Shown here: piece by piece, positions 1,251 to 50,401 of the stretch
Position numbering within the stretch: position 1 is the stretch's first letter
Layout: every line of letters begins with the position of its first letter
DNA from: Labilibacter sediminis
GTDB taxonomy: Bacteria; Bacteroidota; Bacteroidia; Bacteroidales; Marinilabiliaceae
Reading direction: 5' to 3'
Assembly (NCBI RefSeq): GCF_005877885.1
Contig: NZ_VCHY01000022.1
Location: 1-64,000 of the forward strand
Length of the DNA stretch: 64,000 nucleotides
Notes under the pieces: model-generated
Database searches by the model: none
Told to the model about the DNA's origin: nothing
What the model saw: only the letters and a program-made list of their open reading frames with translations
Translations under genes and position numbers: made by a program

Positions 1251-1697
1251 CTCCTCCTTAACAAGGAGGAGTAAGGTGAGGTACGAATCGGGAGGTGGTT
1301 TTAACCCGGATTATGCAATAGAGGTTTGTTATGAGCATTGAAAGTGCCATAAAACAAGAACTTGTTGAAACGAAACGTAGCACCGCTACGGTGAGTTGAA
1401 TCAAGTTAGTGAAACGCCTTGTTTTGAAGCAATTTCAATGCGTAATAGAATTTCTATTGCATATTGCGGGTTTAAATGCTTCAGCTCCAATTTTCATAAA
1501 ATCCCCTGATTTCTTCAATTATTACACATGGATGCTCTAAGACCATAAAGTTCTCATAACGTAAAGTTGTGAGAACATAAGTTTAAGGAGCTGATCTCTA
1601 GGTATATCACTCTCTTTAATTATTATACCATCTTAAAAAAAGTCCAAAACCACCTCCCCTCTCCTTTGTCGAGGTACTCCTCCTTAATAAGGAGGAG
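1251..1697. repeat. Foldback with GGAGGAG arms enclosing a 166-bp element
   Basis: The arm starting CTCCTCCTTAACAAGGAGGAG (1251-1271) and running to GGGAGGTGGTTTT is repeated inverted at about 1648-1697 (CCAAAACCACCTCCCC ... CTCCTCCTTAATAAGGAGGA). Each arm end is itself a small palindrome. The 166-bp foldback element at 1305-1470 sits directly inside the left arm, as if one element inserted into another. Confidence 0.7.
1300..1475. mobile_element. 166-bp foldback element, copy 1 (MITE-like)
   Basis: The element runs from CCCGGATTATGCAATAGA (1305) to TCTATTGCATATTGCGGG (1470) and is flanked on both sides by TTTAA (1300-1304 and 1471-1475). Its two halves pair along most of their length, with a central hairpin CACCG-CTA-CGGTG. 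Three further copies lie at 9324-9498, 47961-48136 and 50227-50401, each with the same 5-bp flank. There is no ORF inside, so any movement would need a transposase supplied elsewhere. Confidence 0.82.
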
Positions 1698-9182: not shown

Positions 9183-9839
9183 TTAACTTACCGGTATAAG
9201 ATTAAAACTGAAACGTCCGATTTTAAACGTTTTATGTGTACGTGGAAAACTTCTCACCTCAATAGTAAAGCTATCTTCCGTTAGCCCTTCCGGCGTAAAA
9301 AAAAGTAACTCCGAACGTTTGTTTTTAACCCGGATTAGGTGTTAGAACATCGTTATGAGGAATGAAAGTGCAAACAATCAAGGACTTGTTGAGACGACTC
9401 ATAGCACCGCTATGGTGAGTTGAAACAAGTTAGTTTACGCCTTGATTGGCAGTAGTTTCATTACGTAATTGGTTTTCTAACGCATATTGCGGGTTTAACC
9501 ACATTGGTGACTTTGGTTTCTGTACCATCAGCGGCAATAAAATAAATACCCTGATTTCTGTCGTCGGGATCAAATTTAAAAAGAGAACCTTTGATAGAGG
9601 TAATGTGATCAAGTGTGCATGATTCGTTGGTTACCTTGTTTTTTAAATCAATAAACTGTTGTAATACCGGTCTCGGAGAAGTGATTTCTACTTTATTGAG
9701 AAGTGGCTTCATTTAAGCGTTTCCACGGCCTAAGGTTAATCTTAATCGCATGAGGCAAGACCACTACCTGCAATTGACTGTCATCAAAATTCTTTTCGAA
9801 AGCATTTTCAGCTCTTCCTTTATGAAATCGCCAGGCCAT
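9183..9839 (-). pseudogene. HU-like/DUF4469 gene split by a foldback element
   Basis: Three pieces of one gene can be read on the minus strand. The first (9839 down to about 9713) gives HKGRAENAFEKNFDDSQ ... VVLPHAIKINLRPW and then goes out of frame. The second (9712 down to 9499) gives PRPVLQQFIDLKNKVTN and FDPDDRNQGIYFIAADGTE. The third (about 9325 down to 9183) gives NKRSELLFFTPEGLTEDSF, then TIEVRSFPRT, and ends RFSFNLIPVS. Together they follow the C-terminal half of HU-family proteins with a DUF4469 Ig-like domain. A 165-bp element (9329-9493) interrupts pieces two and three exactly at VVK|NK. The HU-like N-terminus is missing. A second fragment of the same gene lies at 47632-47762. Confidence 0.75.
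9324..9498. mobile_element. 165-bp foldback element, copy 2, inside a gene
   Basis: The element spans CCCGGATTAGG (9329) to GCATATTGCGGG (9493) with TTTAA on both sides (9324-9328 and 9494-9498). It is close to copy 4 at 50227, differing at only a few positions. Removing the element and one TTTAA restores the reading frame GTGGTTAAAAACAAACG of the host gene. The related sequence at about 47625-47640 (TTTGTTTTTAACCACATTGG) has no insert. Confidence 0.88.
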
Positions 9840-17182: not shown

Positions 17183-17212
17183 ATACTCTAATTAATTTAT
17201 TTTTATTTGTCA

Positions 17213-17310
17213 CATGGAACTCTCAAATAAATTCAATCATTGACTTCGTCGATCTAACGATTCTCTTGTGTGTAACTTGAATAATTAAATTTACATGTTC
17301 GTTTCATACG
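17213..17310. repeat. 98-bp foldback (TGGAAC...GTTTCAT family), copy 1
   Basis: CATGGAACTCTCAAATAAAT and the inverted AATTTACATGTTCGTTTCATAC arms enclose GACTTCGTCGATCTAACGATTC. Related copies are at 38538-38637, 49209-49290 and 49311-49410. A partial copy follows at about 17381-17443 (GACTTAGTCGATCTAACGATTC then CTCGTTTCAT). It fills the spacer between the sulfatase stop and the GH20 start. Confidence 0.75.
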
Positions 17311-17463
17311 GTTAATTTTATTTTTCAATGGTTATAACTTGTACCGCTAAAGCGGGATGCCTGCCCGGAGCAGGCGGGAATATCAAAAATGAATTAGTCA
17401 TTGACTTAGTCGATCTAACGATTCTCAAAGGCTCGTTTCATATTTACATAAAGTATTTTTCAA

Positions 17464-35979: not shown

Positions 35980-38514
35980 TTATTTAACTAATATTTTTGC
36001 CTGGTAATTATTTCCAAGCAAGGATGTTACCTTCATCAAATAATAACCCGGCTTTACATCAGACACTTTAATCTGATTGGTCTTCAACTCTTGTTTAACC
36101 ATCTTGCCTGTTAAATTAAATATGCTCACGGTATCCACTTCTTCTCCTGAAGGCATCTCTACACTTACGTTTTGATTAGCCGGATTTGGGTAAACCTTTA
36201 TGGTATCATAAGCCTTCTTATCTTCTGGCAAAGCAGTTGGTAATAAATTCACTTCCGTGATAAGCGTATCCACATTGCTATGTAAAGAATAACTTGCTGC
36301 TTTTACCAGGCTGTATTGATGCGAAGTTTTTACATCATTGCCCATATCCCAATACATTATACCTCCCAAATCATTATCGTGAATAAACTCACAACGAGCA
36401 ATTGTTTGATTATAACCGGTAAAGTATCGTCGAAAACCATCAGCATCTATTACATTATCCATCTCAGGCGAATAACCATCATCTAAAAGTCCTTTACGCA
36501 CACCAATGGAAGGTACTCCAAGCTTTTCATTGGTAACAGGATCAAAGCCATTTGAAGTGATAGTGGCATATGACAGAATAATTTTTTCATTAGGGAACCT
36601 GTCATCCGCCTTAAAGCGATCGAGTGCATCCTGATAAGTACTCCACATAAACATGTTTTGATTAGGACCATATATCTGAAACTGAAAATAATCCACTAAA
36701 CCCACATATTGATGAGGTAACCAATAGGAAACGTAATGCGGCGTAACAGTAAGGTTTTTATCGGCAGGCAGCTCAGCTCGTATTGCTTCAATCACTTTTC
36801 CATAATTTTCCCAACCAACATTAGTGTATGTCCATTCAAAGTCCAGATCAAATCCATCAATATAAGCATCCATTTCAATAGCCGCCTTTTTTACTTCTGA
36901 GGCGAATGTGGAACGAAAAGCCGGATCAGCAAAGGCAGCTTCCCATTCGTTGAAATTTTTATTTCTGATACCAGCCCTTATCTTATAGCCACGATGCCCT
37001 TTATAATGATCGCGCAATACAGACACAAAATGCTTATACGAATAGGAGTCATAGCCCACATTGTCAGCATTGTTATAATGCCAGTACGAATCAAACATAT
37101 GTAAAACATCGGCATTTACTTTAATTTTATCACTTGGCATGGGGGTAGTAGTCATGGCATATCCCATTTCACTTCCGGAACGATATCCATCCCAAACCAC
37201 TGTTTCATCAAATTTGGCATTTAAGTTTATTCCAATATACGCAGGTGTATCTTCTAAACCGGATAACTGATAATTATTGACCTCTTGGTTGTTATTTACC
37301 GCATAATAGGTAACACCATTAAAAGTAGTTTGAAATACCTGGTTTTTAGTAGTTGAATAGGCTGCAACGCCTAAATGAATCCATTCCCCAACTTTCATAT
37401 AATTAATACGACTATAGTCAACTCCGTTAACACGTACATAAATTCTTTTTTTGGCTTCATCGCCCAGACGGATTGAAAAGCCTTCGGTGTCTGACTTTTC
37501 TTTTTTAAAGATATAGGCTCCTTCTGTCCATTCTTCAAGGTATATCCATGAGGAAAAGGTATATTGATCTTCGGGGTTGAGCACTTTACTCCCCACTTGC
37601 ATAAAGGCTCCATCACCATTAAGAGACAGCACTCCATCCCTGCCCGCATAACTTTCCAGGTGCCCTCCATTGGTCACCGTTCCCTGGTTATCAGGAAAAG
37701 GCACCTCCATCTTACCAGTAGCATCCGGATAAAGGGAAAGTATAATCAGATCATTGGATAACAAATATTTGTCGTGATCTATTTGTCGATCAGCCCATCG
37801 GTGAAATTCAGTATATGCTACAGAAAGTCTGTACTTAAAATGCTGATTGTCGCTTACCAGCTCACGTACGGCATTTTCTGTTAAAACACCATGGTGCTTT
37901 AATTTATAATCAACTATATTGGGGCATAAGTTCTGATCAAACTTATAATAAACCACTAAATCCTGATAATACGGATGGTGCTTATTAACGGTATTACGCC
38001 ACATATGAAAAAACGGATCTTCAATAGCTACTTTCCAAATTCTAAACTCATCAATACGTCCTTCAAATCCATCTCCTCCCATTACAAAATCATCCGGGGA
38101 AGCAGGAAGGGTTTGATTAATTGTTTCTGTCAGCACACTGGCACCATTAACAAATACCTCAACCTCACCTTGTTGATATGTAAGGGTAATATTATTCCAT
38201 GCGTTAGGTATTAAAGCATTTGATGTTAACGCTACAGTTGATTCTCCGGCAGTAAAATTCAAAGTATTTTGGCCACCCAGCTTAACTGACACCTGCGAAT
38301 TCCCTGATCCCCGGCTAAAAACTGTTGCTCCGGAAGTCCATACATCTGCATTAAGCCAAAACTGTATGGTATAATTATTTAAATCATCCAGCTCTGCTAT
38401 ATTTCTATAATTCACAGTACCTCCTGATGATAATTTGAGGGAATAATTATCAACTTGTCCACTAATTGCTACAGTACTTAATAAGACGAAAATGAATAGT
38501 AATGCCTTTTTCAT
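35980..38514 (-). CDS. T9SS-secreted LamG-LamG-GH18 endoglycosidase B (PUL)
   Basis: An 844-residue paralogue of the GH18 protein that follows susD, with the same order: signal peptide (MKKALLFIFVLLSTVAISGQ), two LamG modules (about 20-190 and 295-450), GH18 barrel and a type A sorting domain (VYPNPANQNVSVEM ... GYYLMKVTSLL). The signature is DGFDLDFE at about residue 550, with catalytic Glu kept. I start at 38514 because this Met begins the signal peptide; an upstream frame to 38565 runs into a foldback repeat. The two paralogues differ around the active site (WTYTNVGW against WNYSPQEW), so they may cut different linkages or glycoforms. Confidence 0.9.
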   Translation of the reverse strand: MKKALLFIFVLLSTVAISGQVDNYSLKLSSGGTVNYRNIAELDDLNNYTIQFWLNADVWTSGATVFSRGSGNSQVSVKLGGQNTLNFTAGESTVALTSNALIPNAWNNITLTYQQGEVEVFVNGASVLTETINQTLPASPDDFVMGGDGFEGRIDEFRIWKVAIEDPFFHMWRNTVNKHHPYYQDLVVYYKFDQNLCPNIVDYKLKHHGVLTENAVRELVSDNQHFKYRLSVAYTEFHRWADRQIDHDKYLLSNDLIILSLYPDATGKMEVPFPDNQGTVTNGGHLESYAGRDGVLSLNGDGAFMQVGSKVLNPEDQYTFSSWIYLEEWTEGAYIFKKEKSDTEGFSIRLGDEAKKRIYVRVNGVDYSRINYMKVGEWIHLGVAAYSTTKNQVFQTTFNGVTYYAVNNNQEVNNYQLSGLEDTPAYIGINLNAKFDETVVWDGYRSGSEMGYAMTTTPMPSDKIKVNADVLHMFDSYWHYNNADNVGYDSYSYKHFVSVLRDHYKGHRGYKIRAGIRNKNFNEWEAAFADPAFRSTFASEVKKAAIEMDAYIDGFDLDFEWTYTNVGWENYGKVIEAIRAELPADKNLTVTPHYVSYWLPHQYVGLVDYFQFQIYGPNQNMFMWSTYQDALDRFKADDRFPNEKIILSYATITSNGFDPVTNEKLGVPSIGVRKGLLDDGYSPEMDNVIDADGFRRYFTGYNQTIARCEFIHDNDLGGIMYWDMGNDVKTSHQYSLVKAASYSLHSNVDTLITEVNLLPTALPEDKKAYDTIKVYPNPANQNVSVEMPSGEEVDTVSIFNLTGKMVKQELKTNQIKVSDVKPGYYLMKVTSLLGNNYQAKILVK

Positions 38515-38537
38515 GCGTTTATAATTTTCAATTGCTG

Positions 38538-38637
38538 CATGGAACTCCCAAGAAAAATTAATCATTGACTACGCCGATCTAAAGATTCGTTTGTGTGTAA
38601 ACATGAATAATTAAATTTTACATGGTCGTTTCATACG
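38538..38637. repeat. 100-bp foldback (TGGAAC...GTTTCAT family), copy 2
   Basis: CATGGAACTCCCAAGAAAAA through GACTACGCCGATCTAAAGATTC to ACATGGTCGTTTCATACG matches copy 4 (49311-49410) almost base for base. The ~25 bp to its left (GCGTTTATAATTTTCAATTG) also matches the spacer between copies 3 and 4. It sits in the leader of the GH18 gene. Confidence 0.8.
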
Positions 38638-38657
38638 CTAAAATTTATTTCCTTTGG

Positions 38658-47584: not shown

Positions 47585-47640
47585 CCTTACTTTCTCCCTA
47601 ACTCCACGGAGCCAAAAAGTTGTATTTGTTTTTAACCACA
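47585..47640. repeat. Repeat shared with 5949-6003
   Basis: ACCTTACT ... GGAGCCAAAAAGTTGTATTTG here matches ACCTTACT ... TGAGCCAAAGCGTTGTATTTG near 6 kb. The GTTGTA word is also found in the attC-like sites, so this may be a cassette boundary. Confidence 0.45.
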
Positions 47641-47762
47641 TTGGTGACTTTGGTTTCTGTTCCATCATCAGCAATAAAAATAAATACCCTGATTTATGTC
47701 GTCGGGATTAAATTTTAAAAGAGAACCTTTGATAGAAGTAATGTGATCAAGTGTGAATGATT
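47632..47762 (-). pseudogene. Fragment of a DUF4469-type gene, second copy
   Basis: Minus-strand codons read SFTLDHITSIKGSLLKFNPD then DINQGIYF, a one-base frameshift, and DDGTETKVTNVVKNK. This matches the middle piece of the gene at 9183-9839 at more than 80 percent of bases by eye. It ends exactly at the attC-like GTTGTA repeat. Unlike the first copy it has no foldback element at the VVKNK position, so it serves as an empty-site reference. Confidence 0.7.
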
Positions 47763-47832
47763 CGGCCGCAAATCTGCCCCCAAAAAAACGCGCTACTGCC
47801 TGCTATGCTTTATTGTGGCATGTAGGTAAACG
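47763..47832. other. Palindromic spacer next to an orphan gene
   Basis: Contains GCTACTGCCTGCTATGC ... TGTGGCATGTAGGTAAACGTTA, an attC-like 3' boundary by analogy with the sites at 6989 and 48268. The boxes are poorly conserved. Confidence 0.3.
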
Positions 47833-48234
47833 TTATTTATTTCTTTTTTTCCAATAGTTTTTCGAATATTTACTTTCTCCAAAGTAAATATGTTGCTTCC
47901 CTTCATTATTAGTAAGGACTTCAATTTCTATTTCCAGATAAGTTGGCTTAATGAAGTTGATTAAACCCGCATTATGTATTAGAACTTCGTCATGAACATT
48001 GAAAGCACGATAAAACAAGGCTTTACTGAAATGAGGCATAGCATCGTTCTGGTGAGTTGAAGTGAAGAAACAAAGTGTCTTGTTTTGAAGTGATTTCAAT
48101 GTGTAATAGATTTTATAATGCATATTGCGGGTTAAACTGTCTATTAATGCATCATTGATCATTTCTATATTTTGAGCATCTATTTTACATGTATAAAATA
48201 GAAGTAATAAAATTGATATCGTTCGAACGGTCAT
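47833..48234 (-). CDS. Small secreted protein interrupted in frame by a foldback element
   Basis: A 133-residue frame starting with a signal peptide (MTVRTISILLLLFYTCKIDA); an upstream Met at 48267 would add 11 residues before it. I recognise no domain. About 57 codons in the middle, from TRNMHYKIYY to DEVLIHNAG, are encoded by the 166-bp foldback element and its 5-bp duplication. Removing them gives a continuous IEMINDALIDSLINFIKPTY. The uninterrupted protein would have about 76 residues. It is not known whether the expanded form is made or stable. Attc-like palindromes flank the gene. Confidence 0.6.
   Translation of the reverse strand: MTVRTISILLLLFYTCKIDAQNIEMINDALIDSLTRNMHYKIYYTLKSLQNKTLCFFTSTHQNDAMPHFSKALFYRAFNVHDEVLIHNAGLINFIKPTYLEIEIEVLTNNEGKQHIYFGESKYSKNYWKKRNK
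47961..48136. mobile_element. 166-bp foldback element, copy 3, inside a reading frame
   Basis: CCCGCATTATGTATTAGA (47966) to GCATATTGCGGG (48131), flanked by TTAAA (47961-47965 and 48132-48136). It is the most diverged copy, resembling copy 1 in its middle (AAAACAAGGC ... TGTCTTGTTTTGAAG). The inserted length, 166 plus 5, is 171 bp or exactly 57 codons, and the minus-strand frame through it has no stop. Confidence 0.85.
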
Positions 48235-49153: not shown

Positions 49154-49208
49154 TTTATTTGTTTTTAATAATTAAACTTTCATCTGTTTAAAATTTGTTT
49201 TTAGTTGC

Positions 49209-49290
49209 CAGATGGAACTCTCAAAAGAATTTAATCATTCTAGTGTGTGTGTGTATTTAGATAATTAAATTCTCATGTTCGTTTCATGCG
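49209..49290. repeat. Foldback (TGGAAC...GTTTCAT family), copy 3
   Basis: GATGGAACTCTCAAAAGAAT and the inverted AATTCTCATGTTCGTTTCAT arms enclose a shortened centre with a TGTGTGTGTG run. It is followed after 20 bp by copy 4. Confidence 0.7.
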
Positions 49291-49310
49291 TTTATAATTT
49301 TCATTTGTTG

Positions 49311-49410
49311 CATGGAACTCCCAAGAAAATTTAATCATTGACTACGTCGATCTAAAGATTCGTCTGTGTGAAAAATTGAATAATTAAATTTTACATGGTC
49401 GTTTCATATA
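49311..49410. repeat. Foldback (TGGAAC...GTTTCAT family), copy 4
   Basis: CATGGAACTCCCAAGAAAAT, GACTACGTCGATCTAAAGATTC and ACATGGTCGTTTCATA match copy 2 at 38538 nearly perfectly. Together copies 3 and 4 fill the sigZ-arsM spacer. Confidence 0.8.
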
Positions 49411-50226: not shown

Positions 50227-50401
50227 TTTAACCCGGATTATGTGTTAGAACATCGTTATGAGGAATGAAAGTGCAAACAATCAAGGATTTGTTGAGACGA
50301 CTCATAGCACCGCTATGGTGAGTTGAAACAAGTTAGTTTACGCCTTGATTGGCAGTAGTTTCATTACGTAATAGGTTTTCTAACGCATATTGCGGGTTTA
50401 A
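50227..50401. mobile_element. 165-bp foldback element, copy 4
   Basis: CCCGGATTATGTGTTAGA (50232) to TCTAACGCATATTGCGGG (50396), flanked by TTTAA (50227-50231 and 50397-50401). It is nearly identical to copy 2 at 9324, indicating recent movement or gene conversion. It lies in non-coding DNA. Confidence 0.85.

Follow-up and report, generated by a model that had tools for sequence, protein, structure and literature searches.

The window, that is the whole stretch of 64,000 nucleotides analysed here, holds four copies of a short foldback MITE. An earlier note on this DNA had described four copies of 165-166 bp, and their placement is correct once the 5-bp duplications on either side are counted in. 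One of the copies lies within a DUF4469 reading frame, and a fragment related to that frame lies further along without an insert. The features are:

1300..1475, + strand: MITE copy 1; TTTAA at 1300-1304, element 1305-1470 (166 bp), TTTAA at 1471-1475; subfamily with GCAATAGAGG
9183..9712, - strand: DUF4469 frame with a short N terminus, interrupted by copy 2; its upstream part lies at 9494-9712 and the rest runs from 9323 to the stop at 9183
9324..9498, + strand: MITE copy 2, within the DUF4469 reading frame; TTTAA at 9324-9328, element 9329-9493 (165 bp), TTTAA at 9494-9498; subfamily A (AATCAAGG/TTGATTGG)
47627..47772, - strand: degenerate paralogous DUF4469 fragment without an insert, a weak internal empty site; the homology ends soon after the junction
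47961..48136, + strand: MITE copy 3; TTAAA at 47961-47965, element 47966-48131 (166 bp), TTAAA at 48132-48136; subfamily B (CATCGTTCTGG)
50227..50401, + strand: MITE copy 4; TTTAA at 50227-50231, element 50232-50396 (165 bp), TTTAA at 50397-50401; subfamily A, 98% identity to copy 2

Other repeats are present in the window as well: an inverted repeat with 34-nt arms lies near copy 1 (1786-1923), and another dispersed repeat of about 150 bp (CATGGAACTCYCAA...AATCATTGACT) is found at 17194-17323, 38490-38650 and 49192-49408.

The frame at 9.3 kb is DUF4469: it matches PF14734 as far as profile position 55 of 101, and when the flanks are joined at one TTTAA it continues through the remainder of the domain. 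This continuity bears out the claim that copy 2 splits such a gene, but the frame was already short at its start, with 73 residues ahead of the insert and stops upstream in frame, against frames of 237 aa in three homologues (L310, L314 and L315). Given this short start, the frame may already have been a relic before the MITE inserted. Five homologues (L310, L314, L315, L311 and L318) are uninterrupted at the site; however, all are paralogues or distant homologues. L315, L318 and L316 belong to the same genome as the window, and none represents this locus in a closely related strain, so the proposed comparison of orthologous sites is answered only in part. The fragment at 47632, which had been called an empty site, is indeed free of an insert, but being degenerate and paralogous it is weak when taken alone.

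The duplication of the flanks holds well beyond the window. Among 64 full MITE copies without an insert of repeat G or K (described below), the flanking 5-mers are identical in 55 and not identical in 9. Both flanks are TTNAA in 58 of the 64 copies (26 of the 64 were fetched by a pattern demanding TTNAA at one end). In 53 of the 58 the two middle bases agree and in 3 they are complementary, where base frequencies give a chance expectation for identity of about 43%. In the other 38 copies the middle base is identical in 30 of 33 and complementary in 2, and in the contiguous sample alone it is identical in 24 of 25 and complementary in the remaining one. Such identity indicates a target-site duplication and not a palindromic end: the TTNAA flank is a true 5-bp target-site duplication. 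The duplication reported earlier is therefore real in its 5 bp, but TTTAA is not its sole form. TTAAA is equally common, the flank pairs TTGAA/TTGAA and TTCAA/TTCAA are also found, and the target is accordingly TTNAA. A few copies have unequal flanks, for example TTGAA/TTCAA.

That four copies in the window point to a genome-wide family, as had been suggested, is confirmed. When at most 2 mismatches are allowed, the end pattern TTNAACCCGNATTATG has 449 matches in the 6.36 Mb genome, while a reversed-pattern control has 41. A profile built from 31 MITE copies gave 37 matches, 28 of them full-length, in a sample of 1.22 Mb made up of the window, two complete contigs and 400 kb from the start of another; scaled to the genome, this corresponds to about 190 matches including fragments, or about 146 full-length ones. 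The density (4 matches in the 64-kb window versus 24-34 per Mb on the other sampled contigs) is rough, because the contigs were picked for size and known matches, and the window for the finding.

Of 66 full copies, 60 are 165-166 bp long. A transposase could not be encoded in anything near this length, and the MITE carries no gene for one; the length also suggests that it is non-coding. Its terminal inverted repeats (CCCG.ATTATG.. / ..CATATTGCGGG) form helix 1 of the consensus fold discussed below.

When relatives are searched as well, the family recurs in other Marinilabiliaceae and in Draconibacterium. DNA similarity finds the MITE in 8 of 61 genomes, including the present one, and a scan with a core pattern finds it, among the matches listed, in Carboxylicivirga, Labilibacter, Saccharicrinis, Thermophagus and Draconibacterium. 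Many of the copies in other genomes retain the length and the TTNAA flanks, others do not. One genome (G004) has forms of 52 bp with helix 1 alone, three with matching TTNAA flanks (L225, L321 and L323) and one without (L322); the forms with duplications indicate that insertion does not strictly require the rest of the long hairpin. In the same genome, diverged MITE copies form clusters within larger tandem intergenic repeats (L083 and L084), and most of them lack TTNAA flanks. An exact MITE end, GCATATTGCGGGTTWAA, is borne by the IMG/VR viral contig L061. In searches of the open-licence literature, none of the papers listed names this MITE family in its title.

Repeats residing in the MITE

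Two properties of the family go beyond the earlier note: other repeats reside in the ends of the MITE, and its hairpin is conserved on one strand. The first of the resident repeats, G (264 bp, ends CCTAAGAC.../...TTAGATGG), has 30 matches; at 27 distinct loci of the present genome (L276-L302) the left junction can be read. In all 27 the MITE start TTNAACCCGNATT, unaltered or with 1-2 changes, precedes this junction, and G lies at the ATT of the MITE end. On the right, the junction can be read at 23 loci and runs on into MITE sequence, which in L285 extends for only about nine bases.

The second, K (329 bp, inverted ends CAATGTCGTTTAGTTAAG), has 41 matches, with loci in the present genome at L246-L256, L259-L266, L270 and L272-L274. 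All nine full-length copies, which are 97-100% identical, lie within the terminal 10 bp of a MITE, and K inserts in either MITE end. At the nine loci where both sides could be read (eight full-length copies and one split copy) there is an exact 10-bp duplication in 6, a match of 9/10 in 2 and of 5/10 in L253. Three relatives of K (84-88%) with a readable junction are found outside MITEs, and the flanks of one of them (C321:107167-107448) match at 10 of 11 bases.

The carriers of both repeats are scattered over a tree of 90 MITE copies. For the 10 carriers of K, 10 label changes are required, against a mean of 9.6 after shuffling; for the 14 carriers of G, 12 are required, against a mean of 13.2, and 52 of 300 shuffles give a value this low. 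Resolution of the tree is weak, with 16 of its 81 inner branches starred and 42 open; even if only the well-supported branches are counted, G and K each need 5 changes or more among the labelled rows. Since the label changes are near the shuffled level, G and K probably arrived many times, always at the same base.

It could be argued that G and K are internal parts of longer MITE forms, amplified together with the MITE, and not inserting repeats. An internal module would be expected to give just such an unbroken series of G junctions within the MITE end, and with a tree this weakly resolved recombination between copies could have scattered it. However, label changes about as numerous as with shuffled labels, and those forced by the well-supported branches, speak against an internal module. 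It also counts against one that K can insert at the left or the right MITE end, duplicating 10 bp, and that three diverged relatives of K lie outside MITEs, one of them with nearly matching flanks. We regard internal modules as unlikely, and treat G and K as repeats that inserted into the MITE.

Another repeat, about 70 bp long (ATTATTGCGATAAG...GCAATAAT), seems to occupy one and the same MITE position in three genomes (L029, L073/L174 and L105). It also seems to occupy one position in K (C311:1-222 and C155:7522-7919).

Away from the ends, a REP-like palindrome, CCTGCC..GGCAGG, is found at two fixed internal loops of the MITE, at positions of about 45 and 143, without a duplication (examples are C311:177440, C321:106213 and C311:228285). 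In the sample, 10 of 21 palindrome-like matches are in or adjoining a MITE. An IS4-family IS (444 aa) sits in the REP-like palindrome inside a MITE copy (L085:1665-3340), and perhaps a second IS4-family IS, judged by its start, is likewise placed (L039 near 717). There are also short MITE copies that consist of both arms and one palindrome (C311:323352, C1:237885, C321:78656 and C1:93334).

The hairpin and its strand

Folded as RNA, the copy at 9.3 kb reaches -64.6 kcal/mol, with a z of -6.96. Covariation was studied in 32 near-full copies, picked by hand, of which 5 come from the present genome and 27 from other genomes. The consensus fold, which was derived from the same alignment on which it is scored, consists of 52 pairs, and 95.3% of the cells pair. 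Changes on both sides are seen in 31 of the 52 pairs and none of 500 shuffles reaches any of the measures, while structures slid along the alignment give 36-40% pairing.

The fold favours one strand. In all 32 copies it is the + strand that folds better, and the consensus energy is -44.9 on this strand versus -20.8 on the other. There are 122 G-U cells versus 12 A-C cells (in 34 and 11 columns), counted in related copies and thus not as independent events; for pairs predicted from both strands the numbers are 42 versus 6 (20 and 5 columns), and the five subfamily consensus sequences contain 22 G-U and 1 A-C. A mutational bias was considered as the source of the G-U excess and rejected, since transitions in the unpaired columns lean the other way, 53 vs 121, and so show no bias that makes G-U.

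Long imperfect inverted repeats are known substrates of quasipalindrome correction, where template switching equalises the arms, and in that case compensatory changes would arise, and the hairpin be kept, without selection. There is, however, no reason why such correction should give G-U over A-C, as is seen both in all cells and in the pairs predicted from both strands, and the opposite bias of the unpaired columns is also against it. Further, correction should erase a one-sided bulge, and the one at columns 109-118 persists. It is quite improbable that the hairpin is maintained in this way.

Strong as the one-strand covariation is, recent mutations look neutral. We compared singletons in 61 resident copies of five subfamilies, out of 76 copies clustered, and they are equally frequent in paired (49/6344) and unpaired columns (28/3760). 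New wobbles in these copies number 9 G-U versus 6 A-C, a small sample of 15. The ratio differs from that between lineages with a Fisher p of 0.028 (vs 42:6) or 0.003 (vs 122:12), computed from cells that are not independent. The combination suggests that the structure is selected during propagation, and the simplest reading is that the hairpin was selected on one strand while lineages spread, with neutral drift in resident copies.

Very strong covariation and tolerance of G-U on one strand would also be expected if the repeats were a dispersed structured non-coding RNA gene, or a regulatory element, with a host function in each copy and only passive spread. The gene context can be read in the same direction: by rough ORF calls allowing open ends, 28 of the 84 copies with readable neighbours (out of 90) lie between convergent genes, an enrichment over the 66 convergent gaps among 547 background gaps. 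However, in tandem-gene contexts there is little preference of orientation (25 co-oriented, 19 opposite; the other 12 copies are between divergent genes), and the MITE gathers behind genes, like tolerated insertions. Rfam gave 0 matches at gathering score in the window, and a further search gave one match, far under its gathering score. The TTNAA duplications and the interrupted frame indicate transposition, and the neutral mutations of resident copies, few as the wobbles are, make a function of every copy unlikely. We therefore give a host RNA or regulatory element very little weight, and retain selection of the hairpin during spread.

The IS1380 partner and known systems

As stated in the earlier note, no transposase with matching ends is seen in the window. 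In the whole genome, a draft of 372 contigs, no IS1380 transposase reaches the cut-off, and the single weak IS1380 match is an IS4-family IS. The genome has 10 DDE_Tnp_1 loci, and a TTNAACC(C/T) scan, judged by eye, gave none of them a fitting pair of ends as termini. One of the candidates, L119 on contig C332, has a MITE end about 500 bp off, but it was rejected as a source because its own ends differ (by eye) and it lies within a broken MITE copy. The transposon there (L119:994-2090) has ends ACGTGAGTTCGACGTAA, which we take to be IS982-like.

The transposon with similar ends that had been sought was found in relatives, and not in the present genome. The MITE terminal repeat CCCGNATTATGYATTAGA resembles the ends of a subclade of IS1380 elements. 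In a genome of the same genus (G007) a match to the MITE-end pattern lies 78 bp behind the IS1380 transposase of the element L134, which starts with TTAAT followed by CCTGCTCTATGCAATAG and finishes with CTAATGCATAATTCGGG followed by TTAAT. Its transposase is an open frame that matches NF033539 with 257 bits, versus a cut-off of 180 bits, and PF13701. Close relatives of this transposase are found in 4 of 71 genomes (L134, L133, L306 and L307/L144), and in all four there are two ends beside the transposase, 0-2 mismatches from CC(C/T)GN(A/T)TTATGCA(A/T)TA.

The end shared between the MITE and IS1380 is only about 17-19 bp long; one end of L134 matches closely, and the left one has diverged (CCTGCTCTATG). 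In a more distant IS1380 element, L132, two ends come within 2 mismatches (CCCGGATTATTCATAA), and several further loci come within 3; as the end pattern is not exclusive to the L134 subclade, there is better support for the IS1380 family than for the exact partner. Beside L134 the duplication is TTAAT, not TTNAA, the degenerate L144 is flanked by TTGAA/TTAAA, and L133 and L306 have no clean duplication. A 5-bp direct repeat is described for IS1247, a published IS1380 member (PMC3281130). The genome that holds L134 has no MITE at E <= 0.001.

The IS1380 family is well supported as the source, with the partner deduced from relatives because the present genome has no IS1380 transposase. Judged from sequence comparison, the element is very probably an IS1380-family MITE, most likely moved in trans by a transposase of that family, with a hairpin that would additionally be under one-strand selection. 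We infer that a transposase of the IS1380 type moved these copies, and by the following chemistry: acting in trans, it most likely excised the MITE, the excised element would have been joined to a TTNAA target with a 5-bp stagger, and gap repair at the target would have left the 5-bp duplication. As such a transposase was not found in the present genome, the copies would be orphaned, or dependent on an element missing from the draft assembly.

That a piggyBac-like or other DDE transposase with CCCGNATTATGCATTAGA ends moves the family in place of IS1380 is hardly to be expected: the TTAA-type target and the CCC ends of the MITE fit piggyBac, with its CC-rich ends, too, but piggyBac mostly duplicates a 4-bp TTAA (PMC10813416), and the MITE 5 bp with a free middle base, while none of the DDE_Tnp_1 loci of the present genome has such ends as termini (by eye) and the genus holds IS1380 elements with similar ends.

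More speculatively, and with less confidence than doubt, one may imagine that the strand-specific hairpin of 166 nt, folded either as RNA or as one of the DNA strands in single-stranded form, aids the multiplication of this non-autonomous DDE-type MITE. Spreading lineages would then keep the pairing and tolerate G-U but not A-C, while resting copies drift, and the MITE would in addition anchor G and K as parasites specialised on its terminal repeat.

Bacterial MITEs are usually regarded as passive relics of transposon ends. Here the length and fold of a MITE family vary little among several genera, and one-strand selection is indicated between lineages but not in resident copies, which raises the testable question of whether the folded strand helps transposition.

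Among other known systems, REPINs and IS200/IS605-type single-strand elements are not known to make a target duplication and were rejected, since the MITE has a clear one of 5 bp. Tn3-derived TIMEs, with ends of the form GGGG..., were set aside by those ends, and attC sites because the copies are dispersed and flanked by duplications. With IS1380 insertion sequences the MITE shares ends like CCCGNATTATGCATTAG, CC...GG termini and an AT-rich 5-bp duplication; it differs in being 166 bp long without a transposase gene, and is unlike the IS ends beyond about 20 bp.

QMITE1 and QMITE2 of Coxiella are bacterial MITEs which are likewise short, non-coding and present in many copies, with a stable foldback, direct repeats and smaller versions (PMC5896051). 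Compared with such bacterial MITEs, the present family stands apart by its near-constant length across genera, its strand-asymmetric covariation and the other repeats at fixed bases of its ends. The IS elements that target REP palindromes (PMC1525189) resemble the IS4-family IS inside the REP-like palindrome of a MITE copy; the difference is that here several levels of nesting are found on one short element.

A parallel to G and K is offered by IS5075/IS4321, whose insertion sites are the terminal repeats of transposons like Tn21, described as a safe harbour (PMC8269217). In both cases the terminal repeat of another element is a fixed landing site, but G and K are short repeats, no transposase was identified for either, and the host is a MITE. 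They thus make a clean case of repeats that use the ends of another element as a fixed landing pad, as IS5075 does on Tn21-type ends. The family is best filed as an IS1380-type MITE, a known kind of element, which is unusual in the apparent structural selection on one strand and in being a landing pad for other repeats.
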